Positions 1,630 to 21,892 of a stretch of DNA of 28,153 nucleotides are shown here, piece by piece. The notes below the pieces were generated by a model, which saw only the letters and a list, made by a program, of their open reading frames with translations, was not told where the DNA came from and searched no databases. Position numbers and translations under genes: made by a program. The DNA is from a virus, in IMG/VR virus record IMGVR_UViG_3300025840_000189, positions 1 to 28,153 of that record; one strand, 5' to 3'. Numbering within the stretch: the first letter of the stretch is position 1; every line of letters starts with the position of its first letter.

Positions 1630-4028
1630 GTTTAACTTTACCATCAGCATTTACAACTAAAACAATATTAAAAGAAAATTGGCTTGTTCAATTATGGTAT
1701 GATGATGAGGCAGAGGATAAATTTAGAGGATTATCTTTTTATGATACTAGAGTTGAGGGAACAGATACAGTAGATTATAAAGGATGTATTTTAAACAAGC
1801 CTACAATTAGAGAATCAATCAACTTAGAAGATTCAACAGCTAAAACATCTAATGTATCTATAACACTTGCTAACTTTATAGATAATGATGGTGAAAAATT
1901 TTCAAGAAAATTATTAAATGGTACTAATAAGTTTTTAAATAGGTCTGTAAAAATATACATACAGCCAGATGATACTAATGATCTATATTCCTGTTTGCTT
2001 GTTTACACAGGTAGGCTTACAACTATTTCTCAGACTACTGATAAAATTAGTTTAAATATAGTAGCACAAAGAGCGTGGGATAATATATCTATACCTACAA
2101 CCAGAACTGCTACAAATATTCCTGTGCCTGTTGTTTATGGTAATTATACAAATAATGCACAAAATACTTTTCAAGATGCTATAACAGTTTACCCCATGCC
2201 AAAACTAAGGACAGATGGGGATGATATTTATTACGCAACACCTAAATCTTATGGTAGTGGATGCTTTCCTCATTACTATGATGATAATATTAAAAAATTT
2301 ATTATTATGGGGCAGTATGGAAGTGGAACAAGTACATTAGATTCTGATAATGCTATCGTAGTAGATAACAGATTAAATAGAGGTGTATATTATTTAAGAC
2401 CTACAAAAGTAAAAGATCATACTGATTGGGATGGTTCTAGTCCAGAAAATGTTATAGATACAAATACAACAAGTTCTACAACTCAAAATATTGCATTTTC
2501 TGTTAGTGGGTTAGGTGGTACAAATACAGTAAGAAAAACCTTAAAACTTTCAATGCCTCAGATAAAAGGTCAATTTTCAAGTTTAAAACTACAATTAAAA
2601 GGTAGTGTAGTTATAAATACAGCATCATATAATTCTGGTGCTAGTTCTATTATTAGTTTATCTGATACTACTTTCGCAAATAATACAAGCGATCCTAATA
2701 ATCTTGGTACTACTTACATATCTAAAGATCAAACTGCAACCACAGGAACATATAATACAAGTGGAGCAGGTGCAGGTAGTGCTTACACAGAATTAAATCT
2801 ATATGATAAATATGAAAGAAAAACAGATAGTGGTAGAGATTTAGATGGAGCAATATCTGCAACAGATTATATTATTAAAATAGATAGCTCATCTGATGAT
2901 TTTAAAGCAGGAACAATTATTAAAATAGATGATGAACTAATGAAGATTGTAAGCAGATTTCCACTTACTACTTTATTTATTGTTGAAAGAGGTTACTCGT
3001 ATTCCACATCTGCAACACATTCAGATAATACAGATATATATATTATTGATGAAGGTAGTTACACATTACCATCAGAAATAAATATACAGGCATTAGTATA
3101 TGCAGTAAGTGCTAGTAGTAGTGGATCAATATCATTAGATGTTGATTTTGTTCTTGAAGATTTCTATTTAGTTATAGGTGTAGAAAATGCAGTAGCTAGA
3201 GAGCCACAGGCAACACAGGAAAGTATAGAACAGACAGATTTATTATACGCATCTGGTGATGGACTTACAGAAACATATTCTGGTTCTAATGGTAATGCCT
3301 ATGAGATACATGAACAGCATCGTGATTTAATGAAAAGATTTACAAACTATACAGGAACACCAACAGGGTGGAGCGATTTAGATAGTGCTAGAAGTTGGCA
3401 GAGTAGATATTGGATATTAGAATCAACACCACTTATAGACCATTTAGAAAAGCTACAGTATGAGGGTGGTTTTATTGCACGATTTAATGGGCAGAACGAA
3501 TTTCAATATATATTTATAGCAAATTCACCATCAGTTAATGCTACTTTAGATGCAGATGATATATCAGATATAAGTGTATCTACTGTTGATTTCTTTTCAT
3601 TAGTGTCAAAGATGGATATAGAATATGAATTGCATCCTGCTGAAAGTAAATACAATACAAGCGTAACATCTACTAATTCATCTACCAGAACAGAGTATAA
3701 TATACAATCTGCTGAAAATACTAAAAATATTAAGTTAGATGCTTATGTTAGTCCTACTATCCCATCAAGTGCATCATCTAATAAGAATGATGATTTTTAT
3801 AGTTATTATAATCATATTGTAGGATCACCAAGAACAATAATTAATTTTACTGTGGTCAATCCTAATTACTTTGGGTTAGATGTAGGTGATGTGATAGGTT
3901 TTGATGGACAGGATAATTTTGATAATGTTCTTATGGTGTTTGCGAGTTCATGGGATGATTTTAGTTTTATGATTACAGATGTTAGTAGGTCAGTAGGAAG
4001 TTTAAAAATTACAGCTAGGGAGATTTAA
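1626..4028 (+). CDS. Tail tip / baseplate hub-like protein
   Basis: This is an 800-residue beta-rich protein directly after the tape measure, where siphoviruses encode the Dit/Tal or central tail hub. The first 160 residues (strands around KGCILNKPTIRESINLEDS and the LVYTGRLTTIS segment) resemble hub domains that read out tail-tip geometry. The middle (about 270-510) is Ser/Thr/Asn-rich and looks like an inserted beta module. Residues about 600-800 return to a hub-like pattern ending in SLKITAREI. It starts on ATGA overlapping the tape measure stop and is followed without a gap by the next gene. The exact hub class is inferred from position and composition. Confidence 0.7.
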   Translation: MSLTLPSAFTTKTILKENWLVQLWYDDEAEDKFRGLSFYDTRVEGTDTVDYKGCILNKPTIRESINLEDSTAKTSNVSITLANFIDNDGEKFSRKLLNGTNKFLNRSVKIYIQPDDTNDLYSCLLVYTGRLTTISQTTDKISLNIVAQRAWDNISIPTTRTATNIPVPVVYGNYTNNAQNTFQDAITVYPMPKLRTDGDDIYYATPKSYGSGCFPHYYDDNIKKFIIMGQYGSGTSTLDSDNAIVVDNRLNRGVYYLRPTKVKDHTDWDGSSPENVIDTNTTSSTTQNIAFSVSGLGGTNTVRKTLKLSMPQIKGQFSSLKLQLKGSVVINTASYNSGASSIISLSDTTFANNTSDPNNLGTTYISKDQTATTGTYNTSGAGAGSAYTELNLYDKYERKTDSGRDLDGAISATDYIIKIDSSSDDFKAGTIIKIDDELMKIVSRFPLTTLFIVERGYSYSTSATHSDNTDIYIIDEGSYTLPSEINIQALVYAVSASSSGSISLDVDFVLEDFYLVIGVENAVAREPQATQESIEQTDLLYASGDGLTETYSGSNGNAYEIHEQHRDLMKRFTNYTGTPTGWSDLDSARSWQSRYWILESTPLIDHLEKLQYEGGFIARFNGQNEFQYIFIANSPSVNATLDADDISDISVSTVDFFSLVSKMDIEYELHPAESKYNTSVTSTNSSTRTEYNIQSAENTKNIKLDAYVSPTIPSSASSNKNDDFYSYYNHIVGSPRTIINFTVVNPNYFGLDVGDVIGFDGQDNFDNVLMVFASSWDDFSFMITDVSRSVGSLKITAREI

Positions 4029-4784
4029 ATGGCTAAAAAGTTTTATTATGATTCAGTTAATTTATCAGATGCTACAATATCAGCAGGTACTTATAGTAGT
4101 GGTACATTTACTTTAAATAATGGTGCTGTAACTAATGAGCATTATATAATAGATCAATCTATAGGACAGGCTGTAACAAGTTTTGATGTAGGAAATATGA
4201 TTAGAATAGATTTAGGCAGTTCTTATAGTGGTTCTGTTGATTTTTTATTACATCATAATAATAATACAAGTGGTGATACTGATAATCTAGGTTTTTTTAA
4301 TTCAAGTTCTGGTACAAGCACAGGATCAAGAACAGATTTAGATACTACTACACCATTTGGATGGAGCTTAATAGGTATTAGTAATTCTAGTAGATATCAA
4401 TTTATTGAATCACAAGAGGGTACATTTGGTGGTTTAACAGAAGTAATTATTGGATCAGCTTTAACATTTGAAAATGAGCCAGATATAGGTATAGCTACAC
4501 AGGAAATCTTTGCTACAGACCTAAATACATCGCTTGGTGGTGTAGAATATGCTAATAAGAGACACGAACCTAAAACGACATTTCAACTTAACTTTAGTAA
4601 TATATCACAAACATTTAAAAACAATCTGGTCAATTTTGAACAGGATGTTACCAACTTTAAAAAATTCGTGTACTATGATGATTCTAGTTATCATTATGTA
4701 CGCTTAGACTCACCTATAAAATTCACAGAAGTAGCATTTGAACGATTTAGTGCCTCTCTAAAATTACGAGAGCAACTCAGTTAA
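4029..4784 (+). CDS. Minor tail / distal tail protein
   Basis: This 251-residue protein is the last gene of the tail module before a strong terminator. The N-terminal 120 residues are Ser/Gly/Thr-rich beta (resembling a jelly-roll or carbohydrate-facing domain). The C-terminal half (TEVIIGSALTFENEPDIG onward) has the charged beta pattern common in tail-tip proteins. GGGAG lies upstream of the ATG, which follows the previous stop directly. It may act with the 800-residue protein at the tail tip in host contact. No enzymatic motif is visible and the assignment rests on context. Confidence 0.55.
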   Translation: MAKKFYYDSVNLSDATISAGTYSSGTFTLNNGAVTNEHYIIDQSIGQAVTSFDVGNMIRIDLGSSYSGSVDFLLHHNNNTSGDTDNLGFFNSSSGTSTGSRTDLDTTTPFGWSLIGISNSSRYQFIESQEGTFGGLTEVIIGSALTFENEPDIGIATQEIFATDLNTSLGGVEYANKRHEPKTTFQLNFSNISQTFKNNLVNFEQDVTNFKKFVYYDDSSYHYVRLDSPIKFTEVAFERFSASLKLREQLS

Positions 4785-4798
4785 TATATTACGCTACC

Positions 4799-4853
4799 AA
4801 TAACCCATGATGTAACGAATCCTGTCTATCGCTACATTGTGGGTTATTTTTTT
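4799..4853 (+). terminator. Rho-independent terminator ending the tail operon
   Basis: A 20-base stem (4799-4818 with 4829-4848) contains two G-T wobbles and one mismatch, with a 10-base loop, and is followed by seven T (4847-4853). It lies 15 bases after the last tail gene. It is the strongest terminator visible in the window and separates the late tail transcript from the early promoter just downstream. Confidence 0.92.
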
Positions 4854-4863
4854 ATTTATTTTA

Positions 4864-4892
4864 TTGACTCTAATTATTAGTATTATTAATAT
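4864..4892 (+). promoter_or_regulatory. Sigma70-like promoter for the early genes
   Basis: TTGACT (4864-4869) and TAATAT (4887-4892) are separated by exactly 17 bases. They sit right after the terminator and ahead of the first early gene. The predicted transcript start, about 4898-4901, coincides with the first arm of the inverted-repeat leader, so the structured RNA would sit at the very 5' end of the transcript. Confidence 0.7.
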
Positions 4893-4899
4893 TGTTATA

Positions 4900-5005
4900 G
4901 ATGAATACTAAAATAAATAATAATTTGAACATCACCGAGGGTTCTTTCGGCTACCCAAGCCTACAGTATTCATCGCCCTCGGTGGTTTCAGAGAAAGATG
5001 AATAC
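4900..5005 (+). promoter_or_regulatory. Structured 5' leader, pseudoknot / switch candidate
   Basis: Two perfect inverted repeats are interleaved. GATGAATACT (4900-4909) pairs with AGTATTCATC (4965-4974), and CACCGAGGG (4933-4941) pairs with CCCTCGGTG (4976-4984). The order A-B-A'-B' is that of a pseudoknot. A small hairpin GGCT-ACCCA-AGCC (4949-4961) lies between. GATGAATAC recurs at 4997-5005 beside the GAGAAAG ribosome-binding site, so 4966-4974 could pair upstream or downstream, exposing or masking translation of the gene at 5009. An in-frame ATG at 4901 lies inside the first arm and has no Shine-Dalgarno, so I read this stretch as RNA rather than coding. Confidence 0.6.
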
Positions 5006-5008
5006 AAA

Positions 5009-5200
5009 ATGAAAAAAAGACATTTACAAATTGATAATCCTAATTTATCATCATCTAATTTTTATGGAACTAATGATAGTGTTTGTGGAACAGGTACAGT
5101 TTTATCTATTTCAAAAGATGATTTTTTAAAAACTCCAGAAGATAGAAGATGTAAAAAATGCTCTCATCTATACAGAATATCTACGAAAGGGGGTAAGTAG
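5009..5200 (+). CDS. Small cysteine-containing protein, first early gene
   Basis: This is a 63-residue protein from ATG 5009 (MKKRHLQIDNP...). It has SVCGTG and RRCKKC near the C-terminus, a three-cysteine pattern suggesting a small metal-binding fold. The frame is open back to ATG 4901 (99 residues). That upstream part translates the structured leader and lacks a ribosome-binding site, so I prefer 5009, where GAGAAAG lies upstream. A five-codon mini-ORF (ATG 4998) ends on the 5009 start (ATGA) and might couple translation. Function is unknown. As the first gene after the early promoter it may act in host takeover (inference). Confidence 0.6.
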   Translation: MKKRHLQIDNPNLSSSNFYGTNDSVCGTGTVLSISKDDFLKTPEDRRCKKCSHLYRISTKGGK

Positions 5201-8996: not shown

Positions 8997-9248
8997 ATGA
9001 GTTTATTTAGAGATCAAGTTAAAATAGCAGAGAGAGTATATAATTACTACGATTCTCAAAATAGAATGACTAAAAATCAAAAAAACTTTACTAATAAAGA
9101 AAAAGACCACATGAAATACTGCACTAAATGCAGAAAGGTCTGGGAAGATAGTAAAAGAATAAGAAGTGATTTAAGTAATAATATTAAATGGTATAAAGAT
9201 TTTCCTTCTTATGGTAAACCCAGAGAAACCTGTGTGAAGTGTAAATGA
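8997..9248 (+). CDS. Small zinc-binding protein
   Basis: This 83-residue basic protein has CTKC (residues 42-45) and CVKC at the C-terminus, a four-cysteine zinc-finger pair with a spacing of about 35. A GGGGGG run precedes the ATG, and the stop overlaps the next gene (ATGA). I do not recognise a family. It could be a partner of the following PP-loop enzyme or a DNA-binding accessory, based only on context. Confidence 0.6.
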   Translation: MSLFRDQVKIAERVYNYYDSQNRMTKNQKNFTNKEKDHMKYCTKCRKVWEDSKRIRSDLSNNIKWYKDFPSYGKPRETCVKCK

Positions 9249-10021
9249 AGATTATAAGTCTTGGTATGGGTGTACAATCCACAGCATTATATCTTATGAG
9301 TTCTTTAGGTTATATAGAAAGAGCAGATTATGCTATTTATGCTGATTTAAAGAGTGAGAAACCAACAACAGATAATCTTGTTAAATATTTACTTGATTGG
9401 CAAAAATACAATGATGGTATAGAAATACTAATTGAAGATGCTGATATATATGCAGATGTTATTAATGGTGTAAATAGTGATGGAAAACCTTTTGTAACTA
9501 TACCTGCTTTTTCAGAAAGTGGTGGAATGGTACAAAGGCAATGCACAGGTGAATACAAGATTAAGACAGTTAAAAACAAAATTAGAGAGTTGCATGGATT
9601 AAAATATAAGCAAAGAATGAAACCTACTGAATTGTGGTTGGGTATTAGTACAGATGAGATTGAAAGAGCTAAAGTATCACAGATGTATAATGTAGAGTAT
9701 AAATATCCACTTATTGATAAGCAGATAAGTAGAGCTGATTGTATTACATTCTTAGAAGAAAGAAGTTTTCATAATGTAGATAAATCAAGCTGTGTGTTTT
9801 GCCCATACCAACAAAATAAACAATTTAGAGAAATAAAGGAAAAATATCCAGAGCAATGGAGTAAGATTGTTGAAGTAGATAAAGCTATAAGGGATAAAAG
9901 CAGAAAAGGTAAAGAAGATAGATTGTATTTACATCGAAGTTTAAAACCTATTGATGAGGTATATTTACAAGAAAATCAAGAAGAACTATTTATGTGTGAG
10001 GAAGGATTTTGTGGATTATGA
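9245..10021 (+). CDS. PP-loop (PAPS reductase-like) ATP-pyrophosphatase family enzyme
   Basis: This is a 258-residue protein. The N-terminal SLGMGVQST loop (5-13) is a variant of the SGGxDS pyrophosphate loop of adenine-nucleotide alpha-hydrolases. QRQCTGEYKIK (97-107) with C100, C166 and the CVFC pair (183/186) give the cysteine set typical of the phage branch of this family, possibly an Fe-S or zinc site. Family members activate substrates with ATP for sulfur transfer, PAPS reduction or nucleic-acid thiolation or modification. With no sulfur-assimilation partner here, modification of phage DNA or RNA is the more likely use (inference). Confidence 0.75.
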   Translation: MKIISLGMGVQSTALYLMSSLGYIERADYAIYADLKSEKPTTDNLVKYLLDWQKYNDGIEILIEDADIYADVINGVNSDGKPFVTIPAFSESGGMVQRQCTGEYKIKTVKNKIRELHGLKYKQRMKPTELWLGISTDEIERAKVSQMYNVEYKYPLIDKQISRADCITFLEERSFHNVDKSSCVFCPYQQNKQFREIKEKYPEQWSKIVEVDKAIRDKSRKGKEDRLYLHRSLKPIDEVYLQENQEELFMCEEGFCGL

Positions 10022-20943: not shown

Positions 20944-21372
20944 ATGAGTGAAGAAGTAACAAACAGATGGTCAGATGACTATAGTGGTAGGTGGCAAAAC
21001 AGGGCATATATGATCGTGCCTGTAGCTGATATTGATTCAGCAGATGCACCTACAGACTCAAATACAGTAGCACAGATAAAAGCATGGATGGATAGCTATG
21101 GCTATGAATATACCTCAGATATGAGCAAATCAGAGCTATTAGGAGCTATTCCTGTATCTAATGCCTTTATAGCTAATGCAATACAATCAAGTAAAGAAAC
21201 GCTTAGAAAGAACAACGGAGATGAGGGAGATAGTTCTAAAGCATTACTCAAGTTTCCTTGTGATAATGATGTAGATAATGATCCTGCCATGTTTAGCTCT
21301 TATGATAAGTATTCACACGCTCAGATAATGGATATATTGTCTGGCGATGAGTGGAGTTCATCTATTGAGTAA
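20944..21372 (+). CDS. LEM/HeH-like small virion-associated protein
   Basis: This is a 142-residue acidic protein. Residues about 40-68 (TVAQIKAWMDSYGYEY..SKSELLGAI) match the helix-extended-helix (LEM/SAP-like) pattern often found in phage head-completion and connector proteins. The C-terminus is acidic and Ser-rich. It follows the LamG gene by nine bases with GAGG upstream of the ATG. The next gene begins inside its end. It may attach the LamG protein to the head, which is inference from adjacency. Confidence 0.55.
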   Translation: MSEEVTNRWSDDYSGRWQNRAYMIVPVADIDSADAPTDSNTVAQIKAWMDSYGYEYTSDMSKSELLGAIPVSNAFIANAIQSSKETLRKNNGDEGDSSKALLKFPCDNDVDNDPAMFSSYDKYSHAQIMDILSGDEWSSSIE

Positions 21373-21373
21373 T

Positions 21374-21892
21374 ATGTGCAGTTGTATTTATAATTGTATT
21401 TGCAGTAAAAAGGGAAATAGTCTTGCTGAGTTCGCAGTTACTATGGCTATCATGGCTACTTTGGCAACTACCTCTGCTCCTGCTTTTAGTCGTATCGGTG
21501 AGGGAGCTAAAGCTAAACAAACTAAGGCTAATCTGGAGAAAATAGTTAAAGCATCCCAGATGTGGTACAACCAACAGGTAGAAATAAATGGCATGGGTAA
21601 ATTCCCTTCACAGCCTCATAGAACAGTAAGCATAGGTGAGGTCAATGATTACAATAATAATCGCAGAATAGAGGTAAATGAGGTGTTAGAAGGTACTTAT
21701 GTGCCTGTATTTAGTGATACTAGCTTTCTGCATTTATTTGACAATGACACAATCAGATCACCTTATCAAGATGGTAGATATTTATATGCTATTGTAGGAG
21801 GTTCTGGAACAGGGAACAATATAGTAAGTCCTATTTTTGTTGTAGTAGATCAAGAAAACCCAGAAGATTTTTATAAGTATTACAAACCATGA
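21374..21892 (+). CDS. Type IV prepilin-like protein
   Basis: From ATG 21374 this is a 172-residue protein with a Cys-rich leader (MCSCIYNCICSKKG). The sequence NSLAEFAVTMAIMAT follows: G14 would be -1 and E19 +5 of a prepilin-peptidase site, followed by the hydrophobic N-terminal helix. Residues 35-60 continue the amphipathic pilin helix. A variable beta-rich C-domain ends in DFYKYYKP. This is the class III signal layout of pilins and pseudopilins, so host PilD-type peptidase could process it. ATG 21347 in frame gives a 23-residue leader; neither start has an ideal ribosome-binding site. Its role may be host pilus interference or a virion filament (inference). Confidence 0.7.
   Translation: MCSCIYNCICSKKGNSLAEFAVTMAIMATLATTSAPAFSRIGEGAKAKQTKANLEKIVKASQMWYNQQVEINGMGKFPSQPHRTVSIGEVNDYNNNRRIEVNEVLEGTYVPVFSDTSFLHLFDNDTIRSPYQDGRYLYAIVGGSGTGNNIVSPIFVVVDQENPEDFYKYYKP

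Follow-up and report, generated by a model that had tools for sequence, protein, structure and literature searches.

A covarying three-strand leader at the start of the predicted early mRNA in a clade of uncultured phages, a probable bistable control of translation

The window, the whole 28,153-nucleotide stretch of IMG/VR record IMGVR_UViG_3300025840_000189, contains a tail gene (4029-4784) followed by a terminator, a promoter and a leader that occupies approximately the first 110 bases of the predicted early mRNA and ends at a small cargo gene beginning at 5009. The features of this segment are as follows.

4799-4856, plus strand: intrinsic terminator closing the tail-gene operon upstream (stem 4799-4818/4829-4848 followed by a T run), nearly invariant in relatives
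4864-4892, plus strand: sigma70-type promoter TTGACT-N17-TAATAT, with a predicted transcript start at 4899-4900
4900-4909, plus strand: A, the predicted 5'-terminal strand (putative anti-anti-Shine-Dalgarno, SD), holding the start codon AUG1 and covarying with A'
4901-5008, plus strand: leader ORF from AUG1, free of stops and in frame with the cargo gene
4924-4942, plus strand: B, 5' arm of the central hairpin, with the core CACCGAGGG at 4933-4941
4949-4961, plus strand: inner loop hairpin GGCU/AGCC; most relatives have a similar hairpin of different sequence
4965-4974, plus strand: A', putative lock strand (anti-SD), complementary to A and A2, supported by covariation
4975-4992, plus strand: B', 3' arm of the central hairpin, with the core CCCTCGGTG at 4976-4984, supported by folding and covariation
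4991-4997, plus strand: purine-rich SD-like GAGAAAG; relatives have AAAGG or GGAG there
4997-5005, plus strand: A2, second copy of A between the SD and the start codon, alternative partner of A'
5009-5200, plus strand: variable first cargo gene, 63 aa
5189-5204, plus strand: cassette linker GGGGGTAAGTAGGATG, comprising the cargo gene end, an SD and the next gene start

The initial annotation had described interleaved inverted repeats in the order A-B-A'-B', and every coordinate was borne out. The A strand at 4900-4909 (GATGAATACT) has its exact reverse complement in A' (4965-4974) and the B core at 4933-4941 has its own in B' (4976-4984), with two loops of 23 nt and a 1-nt linker (4975) between A' and B'. 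Likewise confirmed was the repeat of A beside the ribosome-binding site, where GATGAATAC is present again at 4997-5005, just 5' of the start codon at 5009. The central hairpin proved longer than originally noted, pairing 4931-4942 with 4975-4986 and then 4924-4929 with 4987-4992, and its loop encloses an inner hairpin (4949-4952/4958-4961). Folding of 4899-5030 yielded -28.3 kcal/mol compared to -18.0 ± 3.3 for shuffled sequences (z-score -3.2), with no shuffle equaling the native value.

The promoter proposed in the same annotation is present, and equivalents lie 5' of AUG1 in all 16 leaders of the phage clade described below, in which the -10 hexamer ends 6-8 nt before AUG1 and AUG1 sits at leader position 3. 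In all 16, promoter spacing places the predicted 5' end of the transcript 0-3 nt before AUG1, which lies inside A. The terminator preceding the leader (AACCCATGATGTAAYGAWTCCTGTCTATCGYTACATTGTGGGTTATTTTT, window 4796-4856) is almost invariant, loop included, and recurs near-invariant in L005-L009, L011, L012, L014 and L015; the adjoining tail proteins are just ~62-71% identical, and the terminator is thus conserved beyond the need of a plain terminator.

The upstream tail gene was used as bait for relatives, which provided 20 loci and later 53 with alignment. The same layout was found in 15 further records of a single clade of uncultured phages (16 with the window), as one leader copy per record, located directly 3' of the tail gene or, in L013, beside a divergent integrase and an HTH-type regulator. 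One record (L001) carries an identical copy of the window's leader. The leaders of the 16 records fall into five sequence types.

Type F1: GATGAATACT (window, L005, L011)
Type F2: GATGATAACATT (L008, L009, L012, L014, L015)
Type F3: GATGAGACT (L006, L007, L013)
Type F4: GATGATAATGAA (L016)
Type F5: AGATGATAACC (L076-L079)

These types mix with distant terminases. F1 leaders accompany terminases 98% (L005) and 27% (L011) identical to that of the window, and F2 leaders accompany terminases with 96% (L008) and 29% (L009, L012) identity. Since a given leader type can thus accompany widely divergent terminases, the element behaves like a portable module for expression within a mosaic group of phages. 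Two records with terminases ~61-62% identical to the window's (L002 and L010) are without the leader. These two have another conserved hairpin 3' of the tail gene (GAGGGGTGG ... CACCTTCTTGTTT ... CCACCCCTC; L002 ~3470-3545, L010 ~3815-3900), for which there was no Rfam match.

Searches of cultured phages returned no relative of the tail gene and none of the leaders, and host genomes held no relative of the tail protein. The pattern GATGATAAY..RTTATCATC..GATGATA had 17 matches in IMG/VR, 10 of which are true leaders, all from this clade; the other seven lack the hairpin and were dismissed as chance matches. In MAGs, the 12 pattern matches included none in a convincing leader, and the three flagged by a scan for the leader architecture were all weak. 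Since its only known carriers are uncultured phages, the element appears to be undescribed.

The A, A' and A2 strands change together across the five types, and B changes with B'. Pair counts were taken from an in-register alignment of the stems from nine distinct leaders, an automatic whole-leader alignment having been set aside because it misaligned the F3 and F4 stems. For the A:A' and B:B' helices, pairing holds in 99.3% of cells, both partners change in 12 of the 17 pairs, and covariation scores 0.791, compared to 0.228 ± 0.040 for shuffles, which ignore phylogeny. The alternative combination of B:B' with A':A2 pairs in 94.1% of cells, with both-side changes in 13 of 17 pairs and a score of 0.732 (shuffles, 0.215 ± 0.041). 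The alignment is anchored on GATGA/TCATC and the evidence sits in the variable columns; sliding the partners by 1-3 columns lowered the A:A' and B:B' score to 0.10-0.20. Within the B:B' core, every cell is paired and all eight pairs show compensatory changes. The covariation check proposed in the initial annotation thus revealed strong covariation of both stems and of A2, and the leader structure is real and conserved.

Predicted energies of cognate duplexes range from -12 to -18 kcal/mol, the exception being A':A2 of L016, compared to mostly -1 to -10 kcal/mol for duplexes between unrelated types. The A:A' and A':A2 duplexes are nearly balanced in most leaders, often within 1 kcal/mol of each other (-13.2/-12.3 kcal/mol in the window, -14.5/-14.4 in L006, -15.2/-15.1 in L008 and -15.6/-14.4 in L076), and less so in L007 (-17.7/-13.5) and L016 (-15.4/-9.5). 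Furthermore, A' holds some bases that pair only with A and others that pair only with A2, as illustrated by L076, where its 5' GG pairs with A and its 3' UCC with the SD GGA of A2. As these bases are specific to each partner, neither pairing simply follows from the other, and both look separately selected. By complementarity, a single A' strand is thus predicted to have a choice of two partners, the start of the message (A) and the first gene's ribosome-binding site (A2), and the two resulting helices are mutually exclusive and each backed by covariation, as expected of a bistable leader.

These data also bear on another proposal, in which the A:A' tip and hairpin B would shield the early mRNA from 5'-dependent decay and A2 would merely be an A-like ribosome-binding site. 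In every leader A does coincide with the tip predicted for the transcript, and A:A' is strong, but shielding accounts neither for the covariation of A2 with A' and the A' bases that pair only with A2, nor for the open reading frame described below, and we regard it as quite improbable.

The frame beginning at AUG1 runs to the AUG of the cargo gene with no stops in 17 of 17 leaders, compared to 2-6 stops in each other frame. The distance between the two AUGs is 102, 105, 108 or 111 in types F1-F4, which places the leader in frame with the gene. In F5 it is 110 and the leader stop overlaps the gene start (UAAUG), so that the leader frame meets a stop only at the cargo AUG, directly on it in F5 and overlapping it in L129, the similarly organized locus described below. 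Indels between alignable leaders are of 3 or 9 nt, multiples of three, and the pooled pN/pS is 0.51 in the AUG1 frame compared to 0.66 and 1.14 in the other frames; the four leader differences between the window and L011 are all synonymous in the AUG1 frame. From these patterns, the leader is very probably translated as well as structured, rather than a plain UTR. The initial annotation had considered that conserved amino acids in the frame at 4901, coupled with stems not preserved by covariation, would speak against an RNA element. The first part has some substance, given that this frame is open everywhere and under mild amino-acid constraint, but the stems nonetheless covary.

This mild constraint leaves room for a functional N-terminal peptide and raises the alternative that the leader acts at the protein level, with a 34-37 aa peptide from AUG1 being attached as an N-terminal tag to a variety of cargo proteins and the RNA pairings doing no more than tune its expression. 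The frame, open in all leaders and fused to the cargo in F1-F4, agrees with such a tag, as do the recurrent residues (NN, TEG/DMG, SS, K-acidic) and the mild purifying selection. Against it, the F5 peptide is not fused, the unrelated L129 ORF ends in ATGA, the peptide sequences diverge widely between types and L002 has the same cargo without any leader. We therefore deem a protein tag unlikely.

The gene 3' of the leader differs in nearly every record, being mostly unrelated, and the leader persists. The 63-aa gene of the window has one close relative, in L002 (90% identity), and the homology begins exactly at the ATG, with unrelated DNA upstream in L002; hence, 4900-5008 constitutes a module separate from this gene. 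The cargo proteins are diverse and soluble-looking, with 63-108 aa, and none matched a functional family in PHROGs. Most cargo genes end in the linker GGGGGTAAGTAGGATG, which gives a C-terminal -GGK. The near-invariant linker was also observed in L005 (4240, 4437), L009 (4187-5104), L011 (4213, 4410) and L013 (5568). One and the same gene end precedes different genes from phage to phage, and many small proteins terminate in -GGK. On this comparison, the linker resembles a boundary at which single genes could be exchanged exactly. Elsewhere in the window, the early region encodes a PAPS-reductase-like gene (9245-10021; phrog_424, E 2e-36), and 21347-21892 encodes a predicted phage protein with a type IV prepilin-like N-terminus (KKGNSLAEFAVTMAIMATLATT...), unusual beside a tail module.

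The exact change of cargo from the ATG onwards, together with the common linker of the cassettes, could also point to an attC-like site, recombining as folded DNA and swapping the downstream cassettes. An integron would have one such site per cassette, whereas here each record has a single leader and none lies between cassettes; moreover, linker homology suffices for exchange, and the element is located at a promoter with its frame preserved. The probability of this explanation is very slight.

The A, A' and A2 strands, located at +1, +66 and +98, might instead be immunity-type repressor sites on DNA that change with their repressor. Three copies near an early promoter would suit such operators, as would the HTH-type regulator and integrase divergent from the leader in L013. 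However, in the records where A matched, exact copies outside the leader amount to one extra, in L270. The motif is thus essentially confined to each record's leader, so the A copies are not dispersed operators. Moreover, A' is inverted in every case and enclosed by the loop of hairpin B, whose arms change in compensation, and both the reading frame and the phase of indels are kept. Repressor sites are accordingly a very improbable explanation of the three strands.

The initial annotation had also listed ligand sensing among its options, and it had recognised no known riboswitch class. The latter agrees with the Rfam 15 covariance models, none of which matched the window, L016, L076, L008, L013, L129 or L014 at the gathering threshold. 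A ligand or metabolite riboswitch is unlikely, as there is no conserved unpaired pocket; the elements that recur across types are limited to GAUGA within A and a loop-1 stretch, AAUAAU.

We also scanned for the A..B..A'..B'..A2..ATG architecture independently of sequence, with the window scoring 18. Markov-randomised sequence (~7.7 Mb, as four 1.94-Mb replicates scanned under the ATG condition) gave no match at a score of at least 16, and Markov controls derived from other phage sequence (~2.3 Mb in two replicates of 1.17 Mb) gave one match of 16, one of 17 and none of 18. A chance origin of the window architecture is excluded. Among the scanned loci outside the clade, L129 (a 40-kb phage contig, minus strand, ~4680-4565) presents the same A/B/A'/B'/A2 plan in unrelated sequence, also with a score of 18. 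Its A (GAACTGGTA) begins ~6 nt after a TTGCAA-N17-TAGATT promoter, at the predicted +1, its B is AATAGACGC and its A2 lies directly before the ATG. The two duplexes are predicted at -14.4 and -14.3 kcal/mol, the leader AUG lies about 15 nt further in, and a 29-codon leader ORF ends in an ATGA overlap with a CxxC-rich gene of 108 aa. Relatives of this cargo are without the leader, and hence L129 is without covariation support of its own; its similar plan is only suggestive of a wider design. The architecture match in L229 was rejected as a GATGAT repeat on the antisense side, and a further 1.17 Mb of other phages contained no convincing new case.

Taken together, the covariation, geometry, balanced energies, open frame and variable cargo read from these sequences lead us to infer, with a probability of about 0.7, that the element is a bistable mRNA leader controlling translation at the 5' end of the phage early operon. 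In one state, A:A' would close entry at AUG1 and free the gene's own ribosome-binding site. In the other, A':A2 and B would form an SD-sequestering pseudoknot, with AUG1 left open for leaderless-type initiation. A ribosome starting at AUG1 would read through the stop-free leader and strip A' and B' off A2; in F1-F4 it would then run on into the gene as an in-frame fusion, and in F5 it would stop on the gene AUG (UAAUG) and restart. In either state the cargo would keep a single route of access, and the absence of stops before the gene AUG fits a lock opened by ribosome passage. The benefit to the phage may be a delay, a choice between isoforms or the avoidance of double loading. The input would most likely be ribosome access and timing during transcription, with no ligand, and the lock would act alike for any downstream cargo gene. 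A broader and more tentative reading, which we consider possible but doubtful, is that these leaders define a new class of cargo-independent phage translational gate in which the mRNA exposes one of two starts at a time, and which, counting L129, would have arisen at least twice.

Several known systems share parts of this design. Riboswitches that sequester the SD in an H-type pseudoknot, such as SAM-II and preQ1-II, use a loop strand to bind the SD region 3' of a hairpin, as A' is predicted to do with A2, but the present leader has no Rfam match and no conserved ligand pocket, and its loop strand can alternatively pair with the predicted 5' end. A leader ORF, alternative stems and a hidden SD are likewise combined in the macrolide (erm/cat) translational attenuators. 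In contrast to these, the phage leader has no conserved stall peptide, and the competition by its A strand would take place where translation of the leader ORF begins.

The hok/mok/Sok type I toxin mRNAs adopt alternative structures with coupled covariations, and translation of hok requires the mok leader ORF (PMC2891591). They resemble the phage leader, on the mechanism proposed here, in their competing, covarying helices involving the 5' end, in regulated access to the ribosome-binding site and in the translation of a downstream gene through an upstream ORF. Unlike them, the leader has A' in a hairpin loop close to A2, a predicted nearly 5'-terminal AUG and diverse cargo with no Hok-like membrane toxin, and a consensus scan of the opposite strand of the window leader (4900-5009) found no promoter match. 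In the AapA/IsoA toxin mRNAs of H. pylori, successive metastable hairpins sequester the SD in a mutually exclusive manner (PMC6733600). Mutually exclusive anti-SD pairings during transcription would be common to both, but in AapA/IsoA several anti-SD strands compete for one SD, whereas here one anti-SD strand has two partners. In E. coli, leaderless-type initiation is documented at 5'-terminal AUGs of mRNAs that carry an SD-led gene further downstream; both starts are used, and the upstream ORF is able to influence expression of the gene that follows (PMC4965119). The arrangement predicted for the phage mRNA, with two such starts, is alike, but the parts of that report considered here describe no covarying lock strand complementary to both start regions. 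The leader would work like a bistable translational attenuator and belongs to none of these families.

Natural mRNA switches with three covarying strands are few, and here both conformations are backed by evolution, beyond folding software. The element is, moreover, apparently translated itself, works with many downstream genes and depends on an AUG predicted to lie almost at the 5' end. If the proposed mechanism is correct, it would offer a compact, portable means of testing how leaderless initiation competes with Shine-Dalgarno initiation within a single mRNA. It may also reveal how expression of the first phage gene is timed.
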